Part shown: in pieces, positions 21,048 to 41,838 of the stretch | Layout: the number at the start of each line of letters is the position of its first letter | Position numbering within the stretch: position 1 is the first letter of the stretch | Program-made: the position numbers and the translations under genes | NCBI GenBank assembly: GCA_020356065.1 | Contig: CP070632.1 | Span: 1,398,357-1,444,108, forward strand | DNA: 45,752 bases | Direction: 5' to 3' | Source: Nitrospiraceae bacterium | GTDB taxonomy: Bacteria > Nitrospirota > Thermodesulfovibrionia > UBA6902 | The notes under the pieces: model-generated | Databases searched by the model: none | Seen by the model: only the letters and a program-made list of their open reading frames with translations | What the model was told of the DNA's origin: nothing

Positions 21048-21261
21048 GTGCAGCTATGTGATTAATGTGTTAAAGGTGGGAGTGTTGGAGCAGATAATTC
21101 GTCTCCTGACATTGAACCACAAGTGAGCATAGTCAGAAAAATCACATCCGACAGAATAGCAGTTATTGTGTATGCATCTCATTATGAAGGATTCGTATTT
21201 TTATTTTTTTTCCTATAAAATATACTTATCACTATGTGAATTCTATACGAAAGGACTTCAT

Positions 21262-21873
21262 GTGATTCAGATCAGGAAACATGTTTTATTTTTTGCCATT
21301 CTCATATCCGTCCTCGCCGGTGGTACGTACTCTTGCCAGACAGACAAGACAGAGAAAGCCGACAGGAGCGCTTCTGCGGAGACCGGACTCGAACCCAATA
21401 TAGCTGATATGGTTGCATCAATGAACCTTTATGCATTCAACGAGATAGTCAAGGCCCCGGATTTTGAGCTGATGTCAGTAACGGGTGAAAGAGTCAGTCT
21501 GAGCCAGCATCGCGGACAGGTCATACTGCTTAGTTTCTGGGCCACGTGGTGACCATGGTGCAGGAAGGAGTTTCCTTCCCTGGAGAATCTGCACCAGCAG
21601 TATAAGGATGATCCTTTTGTCATCCTAGCTATAGACATTAAGGAAAGCAAAGACGCAGTATTAAAATCCGTTAAAAAAAACGGGCTCTCTTATGCAAACT
21701 TGCTGGATCCTGACGGTCGCGTAAGCGCCCTGTACGGTGTAAGCTCAACCCCGATGAAATTCCTGATTGACAGGCAGGGAAATCTCGTAACAGCTGCCAT
21801 GGGTTACAGAAACTGGGACAAAGATGACTTTAAATCGTTAATTCAATCGTTAATTAATTCAGAACAGCAATAG
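21262..21873 (+). CDS. TlpA/ResA-like thioredoxin-fold lipoprotein, selenocysteine-containing (U-P-W-C)
   Basis: 203 residues if the TGA at 21550-21552 is read as selenocysteine (U97). Upstream: signal segment with possible lipid Cys (LAGGTYSC), then APDFELMSVTGERVSLSQHR and VILLSFWATW. Directly after the TGA, in frame, comes PWCRKEFPSLENLHQQY, then VILAIDIKES, LLDPDGRVSALYGVSSTPMK with the cis-proline, and FLIDRQGNLV, ending in TAG. This is a complete TlpA/ResA fold with U-P-W-C in place of C-P-W-C. A hairpin with arms GGTGCAG/CTGCACC (21557-21563, 21589-21595) and an inner stem with loop AGTTT starts 4 nt after the TGA, as a bacterial SECIS would. The GTG start 21262 is chosen for its AAGGA site; it would act as an envelope thiol/selenol reductase or peroxidase. 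Confidence 0.92.
21557..21595 (+). promoter_or_regulatory. Candidate bacterial SECIS hairpin
   Basis: The outer stem GGTGCAG/CTGCACC (7 bp, perfect) encloses an inner stem GAAGG/CCTTC with apical loop AGTTT, which contains the GU typical of SelB-binding loops. The apical loop begins 17 nt after the TGA codon, inside the usual distance. Confidence 0.7.
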
Positions 21874-38233: not shown

Positions 38234-39145
38234 TCAGGAAGCAAGCAGTTTATTAAAAGGATAACGTCTTAAGAATCCCGTGAATTGTTCAATCGTATGT
38301 GAAGGTTCCTTGGACTTCTTGGACACCAGTGAAAAATCTCTCACAAATTTGTCTTCTTTGAAAGTAGCAGTCTTAAGGCTTCCATATCTGAGCTCTTTTC
38401 TTGCAGCCCATCTGGAGAGAATAGAGGTACCCAGACCTTCTTCAACCGCTGTCTTAATCGATTCTGTGCTGCCCATGATAAGGGATATCTTGAGATTCTG
38501 CTGTGAGATTCCATGCTTTGAAAGATATTTTTCAATGGCCTGTCTCGTGCCCGATCCTTCTTCCCTGAAAATCAGCGGCTCCTTGGAAAGCTCCATTATG
38601 GATACGCTGGCCTTCTTTGCAAGCCCATGATATGGGGACATGATAAAGACCATCTCATCAGCAATCAGTTTTTCAACAATAAGTTTCTGTTTATTAACTT
38701 CTCCCTCTACAAGTCCGACATCAACACTCCCCGAATTAATAAAATCAATTACGTTTTTACTGTTGCCTACATGAAGATGAACACCGACTTTAGGGAACTT
38801 TCTCTTGAAATCAGCAATTACCGATGGAAGAACATAGTTACCTATTGTGGAACTCGCACCCACTGAGATAACTCCCTTGACAAGACCGGTTACCCCGCCA
38901 ATCTCCTTTTCAGCAGCCGAGTACAGTGTGCTTATTTCTTTCGCGTATTTATAAAGCATTTCCCCGGCCTGGGTAAGCGTAATGACACAGCCTGAACGGT
39001 TAAACAGCTTGGTTCCATACATTTCTTCAAGTGCCTGGATCTGTAAACTGACAGCAGGTTGGGTAAGACGGATTATTTCAGATGCCCGGGAGAAACTTTT
39101 TGTTTCTGCAACGATACAGAAGACTTTTAACTTATGATCATCCAT
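38234..39145 (-). CDS. LysR-family regulator, possibly selenium-metabolism type
   Basis: 303 residues: N-terminal helix-turn-helix (MDDHKLKVFCIVAETKSFSR then ASEIIRLTQPAVSLQIQALE) and a C-terminal effector-binding domain (VISVGASSTIGNYVLPSVIA, DVGLVEGEV, REEGSGTRQAIEKYL). It resembles CysL/YeiE-type regulators. I recall a named LysR subfamily associated with selenium metabolism that fits this layout; membership cannot be verified here. It diverges from the selenocysteine cytochrome gene across a 335-bp region containing a consensus promoter and a 16-bp palindrome, so it probably controls that gene. Confidence 0.85.
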   Translation of the reverse strand: MDDHKLKVFCIVAETKSFSRASEIIRLTQPAVSLQIQALEEMYGTKLFNRSGCVITLTQAGEMLYKYAKEISTLYSAAEKEIGGVTGLVKGVISVGASSTIGNYVLPSVIADFKRKFPKVGVHLHVGNSKNVIDFINSGSVDVGLVEGEVNKQKLIVEKLIADEMVFIMSPYHGLAKKASVSIMELSKEPLIFREEGSGTRQAIEKYLSKHGISQQNLKISLIMGSTESIKTAVEEGLGTSILSRWAARKELRYGSLKTATFKEDKFVRDFSLVSKKSKEPSHTIEQFTGFLRRYPFNKLLAS

Positions 39146-39402: not shown

Positions 39403-39480
39403 TCCAACTCCCGTTAATTATAGTTTAGTGCTCTCTAAGGTTATTAAACGTAGAGTGCAAATAAAACAAAAGGAGGTAAT

Positions 39481-40701
39481 ATGAGATTATTTATCACACT
39501 GGTAATACTCATCTTTGCAGCAGCTGTTCCTCATATAGTGTCCGCTGAACCGGCTACTACAATAGATGAGTTAGTCGCACCTTACGATTCATCGAAATGC
39601 TCAGAATGCCATGAAGATGCTCATGAGAGCTGGGTAGAATCATGGCACTCAAAATCCATTACTGATTCCAGAGTATTAAGAGCATGGAGGACCTTTATAC
39701 TGAGCGGGCTTGATGCTTCTGAACAGGCCAAGAGAAGAGACCTGAAAGACATCTGTATGCCCTGTCATGCCCCTGTAGTAAAGAAAGTTTCCATGACTGA
39801 TGAGTTAGCCGTAGAAATTTCAAACCTCGTAGTCACTGCAGTAGATGATAAGGATGCGGCAAAGAGAGATGCAGCCAAAAAAGAACTTAGCAAGCTTAAT
39901 GTTAACTGTCTGAGTTGTCATAATATTGAAGGCTCTCCAGACCACAATCCTCAGGCAAACACAATTTACGGACCGGGTAGTTCTGAAGACCCTCCCCATA
40001 AGGACGAATTCGGTTATGAGACTGTTAAATCACCATTCATGAAAACTTCAGAGTTCTGTAAGAGCTGTCATCATGGCTGTCCTCCGGACATGCCTTCTTC
40101 GATCTGTCCTACTTTGTGGACAAGTTATGAAGAAGCATACCTGGCGCATGGCGGTGACAAGACATGTCAGGAGTGCCACATGCAGGGAGAACCGAATGGT
40201 ACGAATCACCGTTTCCCCGGCATATATGAGAAGGATTTTGCAGCGACAGGTGTGGATCTGAAAGTCAGTGCGAGTCCAACCGAAGTTGTTGATTTTATGA
40301 ATAATGTAACGCATCCTGCTGTGGTCATGAATATTCAGTTGAAAAATACATCCGGCCACGGCATTCCCCATGGCTGAATGTACATTCCTCAAGCGTCACT
40401 GGATGTGACCGTAAAAGATCAGGATGGAAAAGTTCTACTTACCAAGAAAAAAGTATTTGCCGTATATGACGTTCATTTAGAGTCTGATAAAGAAGGTTAT
40501 CTGGGAATGAGTAACTATGACATAACCGCCCAGCACCATATAGACCTCGGACTTGAGCCTCATCACACTGAGTCGATTACTGATGTATTGCCTTTACCTG
40601 TAGGAACGAAATCTGCAACTGTTGAAGCAAATTTTAATTATGATTATGAAGCCACTCATTCAGAAGTAATTAAAACAGTAAGCAAAACAGTGAATTTCTA
40701 A
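39481..40701 (+). CDS. Pentaheme cytochrome c, selenocysteine-containing
   Basis: 406 residues if the TGA at 40375-40377 is selenocysteine (U299). A signal peptide (1-22) and five CxxCH heme motifs (40-44, 92-96, 143-147, 193-197, 229-233) indicate a periplasmic or extracellular electron carrier. Before the TGA the frame reads LKNTSGHGIPHG, a GHxxPxG motif known from large multiheme cytochromes, and after it MYIPQASLDVTVKDQDGKVL and a beta-rich domain to TAA, in the same frame with no gap. A GTCAC/GTGAC hairpin with loop TGGAT lies 17 nt after the TGA. The ribosome site AAAAGGAGGTAAT is excellent. Divergent from the LysR gene; a strong terminator follows. Confidence 0.9.
40395..40409 (+). promoter_or_regulatory. 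Candidate SECIS hairpin of the cytochrome gene
   Basis: GTCAC/GTGAC (5 bp) with loop TGGAT begins 17 nt after the TGA, a distance within the bacterial range. The stem is short and the loop lacks a clear GGU, so support is moderate. Confidence 0.4.
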
Positions 40702-40722
40702 TTCTTTATTAAAGTGTCTAAA

Positions 40723-40759
40723 GGCATCATTCCTGTGAACAGGAATGATGCCTTTTTTT
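40723..40759 (+). terminator. Rho-independent terminator of the cytochrome gene
   Basis: GGCATCATTCCTG and CAGGAATGATGCC form a perfect 13-bp stem with loop TGAA, followed by seven T residues, 21 nt after the TAA stop. Its position supports the TAA at 40701, not the TGA at 40377, as the gene end. Confidence 0.95.
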
Positions 40760-40872: not shown

Positions 40873-41838
40873 ATGAAAACATTTTTTATAATTTTATTCA
40901 CAGGTGCGTTACTGTTCCCCGGATGCGGCAAGGATAAGGTCAAGCCTTCTGCTGACTTTTTATTGTCACAGGAGGCAGCTGAAAAGATTGATATGATCAA
41001 GACTGCTTATGTGTCAAGAAGTAATTCAAACCTGAGGGCCTTGATAGACCCCCCGTTATCAGACAGTATTATCAATGCCCTGTCATTCAGTAAAGCTGAA
41101 CTGTCTTTTCATCAGAGGCTGGTAAGAATAGCAGCTGATGTTATTCATGTCAGTGTCAGCTGGCAAGGATCCTGGTGGTCATCAGATGACAGGGAATTCA
41201 GTCACAGGGGCGTGGCCGATCTCATTTTTCAAAGGGAAACAATGAAACTTTCTAATATTACCGGAGACAATCCATTTATCCCTCATTATAGAGGAGTCCC
41301 GGGGCATTCAGAGGTGACAGACATGGGGTCACCACCTGAACCACCAATAAAAACAGATACAGATGTAACGAAACAATCTCTACCGACAAAAGAAGACAAA
41401 GAAACTTCGCCCGAGCTCAAACCGTTTAATCAGGACAGGGAGAAAACTGCTGAGGTGAATACTCCCGGGGATGTAGCGAAACAGTCACTATCGGAGACAG
41501 CTGGTGAGCAGCCGTTTACAGATACCGAACCGCTGAGTCAGACATGGGAGGATAATGCTGAAATTTATACTATCCAGACCGGGAGTTTCCTCGATCTCGA
41601 GAGTGCCCGGGTACAGTATGATTTAATAGCTAATCTGCTTGAGAAAAAAAAATATGACAACCTGAGAATAGAGAAAATTGGAGACTTTTATGCAGTGAGA
41701 CTTGGGATATATGACAGTTCCCTTTCCGCTGACAATATGCTCCAGGAACTGATACATGAGATTGATTCACCTGTTGTGATGAAATCATTTATTAAAAAAG
41801 ACAGGATCATTGAGCAACAGAGCAGGCAAGCTCAATAG
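40873..41838 (+). CDS. SPOR-domain lipoprotein
   Basis: 321 residues. Lipoprotein signal with lipobox LFPGC, a conserved N-terminal region (about 35-125; EAAEKIDMIKTAYVSRSNSN), a polar Pro/Thr/Glu-rich linker (about 140-225) with a repeated TDVTKQSL / GDVAKQSL motif, and a C-terminal SPOR domain (about 233-310; EIYTIQTGSFLDLESARVQY). SPOR domains bind denuded peptidoglycan at division sites. The C-terminal part is closely related to that of the protein at 44373-45572, so the two arose by duplication of the SPOR module. It converges on the M14 gene. Confidence 0.87.
   Translation: MKTFFIILFTGALLFPGCGKDKVKPSADFLLSQEAAEKIDMIKTAYVSRSNSNLRALIDPPLSDSIINALSFSKAELSFHQRLVRIAADVIHVSVSWQGSWWSSDDREFSHRGVADLIFQRETMKLSNITGDNPFIPHYRGVPGHSEVTDMGSPPEPPIKTDTDVTKQSLPTKEDKETSPELKPFNQDREKTAEVNTPGDVAKQSLSETAGEQPFTDTEPLSQTWEDNAEIYTIQTGSFLDLESARVQYDLIANLLEKKKYDNLRIEKIGDFYAVRLGIYDSSLSADNMLQELIHEIDSPVVMKSFIKKDRIIEQQSRQAQ

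Follow-up and report, generated by a model that had tools for sequence, protein, structure and literature searches.

A selenocysteine-containing pentahaem cytochrome of the ExtKL/MccSep family in a Nitrospirota genome

A known selenoprotein family and its Nitrospirota branch

Selenocysteine (Sec) is unusual in an electron-transfer cytochrome. It was proposed in 2007 for the product of GSU2937 and GSU2936 of Geobacter, read together as a Sec cytochrome (PMC1914089). This product, ExtKL, is described as a five-haem protein of the extHIJKLMNOPQS cluster (PMC5877670, PMC6148476), and its family is listed in a 2026 selenoproteome review (PMC13188914). Close relatives are MccSep, represented by the structures 9WT8-9WTC (Sec at U325, and the mutant U325A), and sPHC, an ExtKL-like pentahaem cytochrome of cable bacteria, where the homologue was treated as a two-gene structure (PMC11976967). 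A literature search for MccSep returned no paper, and no settled function for the ExtKL/MccSep family was found in the literature examined, though the family has been known since 2007.

The gene described here lies in a 45,752-nt stretch of a Nitrospiraceae genome (GCA_020356065.1, contig CP070632.1), hereafter the window; its features are listed in Table 1. The product matches NF040886, the model for "multiheme c-type cytochrome (seleno)protein ExtKL", with 297.2 bits (curated cut-off 250) over residues 6-405. It carries five CXXCH motifs, and the residue after GHxxPxG, in the column of MccSep U325, is Sec or, in some relatives, Cys. Residues 22-402 align with the MccSep structures (E 2.8e-37 in a single-sequence search, 9.5e-91 in a profile search), U325 (Ala in U325A) falling exactly in the column of U299. 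The window protein belongs to an already known selenoprotein family, here in a little-studied Nitrospirota branch. A distant match to cytochrome c552 of Thermochromatium tepidum (5ZE8; E 1e-6 with a single sequence, 3.7e-24 with a profile) is far weaker than that to MccSep, and its alignment is partial.

Like ExtKL of Geobacter sulfurreducens, the window gene has five CXXCH motifs and an in-frame TGA between its cytochrome and beta parts, and both are read as single genes. It differs in falling into a separate Nitrospirota clade, in having PHGU instead of PDGU, and in being 28-32% identical to members of the canonical clade found in Nitrospirota genomes. It also differs in its surroundings, a matter of context outside the family model: the gene is not part of an extHIJKLMNOPQS cluster of the Geobacter type, it adjoins a divergent selenium-associated LysR gene, and no extHIJ-MNOPQS gene was recognised among its scanned neighbours. 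MccSep is of another clade type, with GHSIPDGU. The cable-bacterium sPHC shares the family and differs in its sub-clade; at the corresponding locus of Ca. Electrothrix aarhusensis (L151), where Sec stands in GHRIPDGU, the ExtKL homologue has an in-frame TGA as in the window gene.

A quick maximum-likelihood tree of 95 sequences separates three clades. The first comprises canonical ExtKL with GHxIPDGUP, and the second, of the GHRIPDGULWSGKV type, contains sequences from Desulfobulbia, Thermodesulfobacteria and Nitrospirota. The third, with 100% SH-aLRT support, is mainly from Nitrospirota, combines GHxxPHGU and PNGU types, and holds the window gene together with a paralogue from the same genome. 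Cys forms occur in this sample only in the mainly Nitrospirota clade, and the tree calls for at least three label changes. Of the named relatives of the window gene, the nearest are in Thermodesulfovibrionia metagenome genomes. The paralogue (G000:C1:1739083-1740619, L048) is 43-44% identical and is likewise a Sec pentahaem cytochrome with its TGA at the same place; in its neighbourhood (L071) it adjoins a flavin reductase-like protein and methionine sulfoxide reductase B. In one Cys homologue (L068, G010:C114:11900-13900) about 190 residues are inserted after haem motif 2 and before motif 3; a Sec copy (G010:C114:10545-11753) lies in tandem with it.

Table 1. Features of the seleno-cytochrome gene and its immediate surroundings, in window coordinates
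Feature	Position	Strand	Basis or remark
Divergent LysR regulator, selenium metabolism-associated	38234..39145	-	NF040786, 280.6 bits (cut-off 250)
Ribosome-binding site AAGGAGG	39470..39476	+	Sequence
Seleno-cytochrome gene (ExtKL/MccSep family), 406 aa with U299	39481..40701	+	NF040886 match and translation
Putative signal peptide, residues 1-22	39481..39546	+	Hydrophobic N-terminus; translation
Haem-binding motif 1, CSECH, residues 40-44	39598..39612	+	Invariant in 62 homologues
Haem-binding motif 2, CMPCH, residues 92-96	39754..39768	+	Cys and His invariant in 62 homologues
Haem-binding motif 3, CLSCH, residues 143-147	39907..39921	+	Cys and His invariant in 62 homologues
Haem-binding motif 4, CKSCH, residues 193-197	40057..40071	+	Cys invariant; His in 59/62, alignment gap in 3
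Haem-binding motif 5, CQECH, residues 229-233	40165..40179	+	Cys and His invariant in 62 homologues
C-terminal beta domain, about residues 257-405	40249..40695	+	AlphaFold2 model, strands 258-405
GHGIPHG motif before Sec	40354..40374	+	H293, P296 and G298 invariant in 62 homologues
UGA codon, selenocysteine 299	40375..40377	+	Sec 53/62 and Cys 9/62 homologues; U325 column of MccSep
SECIS hairpin within the coding sequence, GGA loop 40401-40403	40393..40412	+	Codon freeze, hairpin z, pair counts, independent genes
Intrinsic terminator	40720..40755	+	16-pair stem and T run, just past the distal TAA
Small lipoprotein-like gene	40873..41838	+	Relatives near the cytochrome elsewhere (cluster 1 in 11 loci)

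Decoding of the internal UGA

The gene forms a single frame from an ATG 3' of AAGGAGG to a TAA at 40699-40701, interrupted only by the TGA at residue 299. The preliminary description had pictured a pentahaem cytochrome c with Sec after GHGIPHG, its two same-frame parts split by the TGA, a beta domain downstream and a terminator beyond the distal TAA. All of this was borne out: five CXXCH motifs are present, GHGIPHG directly precedes the TGA, the AlphaFold2 model consists mainly of beta strands from about residue 257, and the terminator lies where it had been placed. That the TGA is not there by chance follows from the NF040886 profile, which aligns continuously across it, and from the paralogue with its TGA at the same place.

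Among 62 aligned homologues the U299 column contains Sec in 53 and Cys in nine and nothing else; Gly and Trp, which had been named as residues that would tell against Sec, occur in none. What is looked for in a bacterial selenoprotein gene, an in-frame UGA with conserved sequence on both flanks and homologues with Cys, is thus found here. The check on a downstream gene with a start of its own likewise went against that reading: the codon after the TGA, ATG in the window gene, is mostly GTA, ATA, CCN or CTN in relatives, in most cases no start. A separate downstream gene and a nonsense mutation are both rejected in view of the Cys homologues that read through, these non-start codons and the sharing of the TGA among relatives. 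The conserved-operon reading of 2007, a true stop after a five-haem ExtK followed by a separate ExtL gene, could appeal to the ATG directly 3' of the TGA and to the SECIS and Cys homologues that the 2007 study did not find (PMC1914089), but it is scarcely credible in view of the nine homologues reading straight through with Cys, the post-TGA codons of relatives, the synonymous freeze 3' of the TGA described below, the Sec machinery encoded in the genome and the presence of U325 in the solved MccSep structures.

The freeze concerns codons +6 to +11 after the TGA, which are synonymously near-frozen in 54 Sec genes: Ala is GCG in 30/30, Thr ACG in 9/9 and ACC in 52/53, Leu CTG in 52/52 and Val GTG in 52/53. 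Homozygosity over these codons is 0.86-1.0, against 0.21-0.28 expected, from the remainder of the same genes, at four of the six. The freeze is absent from the nine Cys homologues, only one of which retains GTGACC. Since the constraint holds in Sec genes and is relaxed in Cys genes, we conclude that a SECIS element lies inside the coding sequence, just 3' of the UGA, in the form of a short hairpin whose apical loop, some 25 nt past the TGA, contains GGA. In a seven-pair model of the hairpin 89.7% of cells pair, compared with 23-44% when the partner is slid, and the window hairpin, GCGTCAC[TGGAT]GTGACCGT, has a z of -1.82 on 26 nt. Forty-four further loci from two sister clades repeat the pattern: 41 of them have GGA where the loop lies, and 37 have GTGACC. 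True compensatory changes are few and the helix shows weak covariation, since its pairs are for the most part conserved and do not co-vary; RNAalifold on the alignment gave three pairs only, and a single-sequence fold of the 51 nt from the TGA gave no significant structure. Two of the exceptions to this pattern, L163 and L165, group near canonical sequences of the Desulfuromonadales type, a placement that may explain why the Geobacter-based analysis of 2007 missed the SECIS.

The genome, a single contig of 3.17 Mb, encodes SelA, SelB and a Sec-type SelD. A BLAST search with the tRNA-Sec of a relative recovered the first 52 nt of a tRNA-Sec gene (92% identical), among them GGACTTCAAATCC, which contains the TCA anticodon; beyond nt 52 the gene continues as a run of about 100 N (L181 1501-1700; G000:C1:2032116 onward). 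The set of SelA, SelB, SelD and tRNA-Sec that a Sec-decoding host needs is therefore present, the tRNA being visible as its 5' 52 nt only. An Rfam covariance search and two pattern searches missed tRNA-Sec in this genome, and automatic annotation would label it tRNA-Sec negative on account of the N run. The SelD gene itself (G000:C1:1606201-1607112, L088) has an in-frame TGA and probably encodes a selenoprotein. A second likely selenoprotein gene occurs in the window at 21166-21873 (+), with a TGA at 21550-21552; its TlpA/redoxin-like product (AhpC-TSA, E 2.7e-25) has Sec where the first active-site Cys would stand in WATWUPWC, and a strong hairpin follows the TGA immediately (MFE -18.6, z -1.88).

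Taken on their own, membership of the ExtKL/MccSep family and decoding of the TGA as Sec are, in our judgement, practically certain. Decoding would proceed by SelB and tRNA-Sec, directed by the in-gene SECIS hairpin 15-35 nt downstream of the UGA.

The protein and its neighbours

The encoded product is, as read from its sequence, predicted to be an exported (periplasmic) pentahaem c-type cytochrome. The AlphaFold2 model has a mean pLDDT of 89 and a pTM of 0.85, with a helix of low confidence at residues 2-14 of the N-terminus. A Foldseek search of the PDB returned only weak matches to beta sandwiches and spurious ones to helicases; the MccSep entries were absent from its list. GHGIPHGU corresponds to residues 292-299. 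Outside the CXXCH motifs the only invariant His residues in the 62 homologues are H173, H243 and H293; position 56 is occupied by His, Met or Lys. C209 is the sole invariant Cys outside these motifs; C200 is kept in 53 homologues.

The neighbours of the seleno-cytochrome comprise the LysR regulator, an MgtC-like protein and the lipoprotein-like gene, for which a weak SPOR match was the only one found. The regulator exceeds the membership cut-off of NF040786, "selenium metabolism-associated LysR family transcriptional regulator", and in six other loci a LysR gene with 81-97% identity to it adjoins a seleno-cytochrome; five of these loci repeat the divergent arrangement. Across loci including L108, L110, L111, L118 and L122, where LysR identity is 81-97%, the adjoining cytochromes are only about 50-75% identical, so that conservation is much stronger in the regulator than in the gene it presumably controls.

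Possible roles of Sec299

We put the probability of the explanation as a whole, its identity part discounted for mechanism, at roughly 0.85. In the mechanism that we favour, the five haems would form a short electron wire supplied by the periplasmic cytochrome pool. Sec299, in a haem-site geometry that we infer, would lie at the beta domain's edge within the invariant H-x-x-P-x-G-U loop, and together with an incompletely ligated haem it would make up a redox-active site whose selenolate binds or reduces a small substrate. Because H173, H243, H293 and position 56 have to serve five haems, one haem appears to lack an invariant His partner. This agrees with the pentacoordinated haem that was assigned from models in the cable-bacterium homologue (PMC11976967). 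Sec299 would lie at this site or close to it, as a ligand of the haem or as the residue that handles a substrate. A catalytic site is what we tentatively propose for Sec299, at somewhat less than even odds.

The substrate would most likely be a chalcogen species (selenite, tellurite or a sulfur compound, for instance). This is considered probable because the adjoining regulator is selenium-associated and because of the ext literature: in Geobacter, the reduction of selenite and tellurite is impaired when the porin ExtI, whose gene shares a cluster with extKL, is lost (PMC5877670). Since that phenotype is ExtI's, and since ext genes were not recognised beside the window gene, the function of the window protein may differ from that of Geobacter ExtKL. 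Its expression is probably controlled by the divergent LysR.

Sec299 might instead be non-catalytic, its selenolate serving as a fixed axial haem ligand that tunes electron transfer only. H293 and U299 share one loop and are invariant as His and Sec/Cys, and the haem left over by the count of invariant His would gain its partner. Thiolate-ligated haems are established, and Cys, which can act as a haem ligand, could take this place in the nine Cys forms. Thiolate ligation alone would not, however, explain the retention of Sec in 53/62 genes, and we think this role unlikely.

Invariant Cys209 is a possible partner of Sec299 on conservation grounds, and the two could form a selenenylsulfide redox switch that is coupled to the haems and makes no direct substrate contact at a haem; it might serve, for instance, repair or the reduction of peroxides. 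The singular invariance of C209 and the frequent retention of C200 would suit such a switch, as would the methionine sulfoxide reductase B and flavin reductase beside the paralogue; C200 and C209 may, however, just pair with each other, and the neighbours of the paralogue are unlike those of the window gene. We regard the switch as distinctly unlikely.

The catalytic reading could be extended to the PHGU clade as a functionally separate seleno-cytochrome, in which the Sec299 selenolate would be an axial ligand or direct substrate-binding partner of the catalytic haem, and chalcogen reduction would be under the control of the clade's own selenium-responsive LysR. In this full form the proposal is improbable.

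The novel elements for the family are the Cys homologues and the SECIS, both reported missing in 2007 (PMC1914089), and a Nitrospirota PHGU clade that is well supported and has a context and a regulator of its own. The objections of 2007 are answered by nine Cys homologues in Nitrospirota and by a clear in-gene SECIS in more than 90 genes; where annotations list the gene as two, these entries should be merged. The conserved association of these cytochromes with a LysR of the selenium-associated family offers a route towards their substrate.
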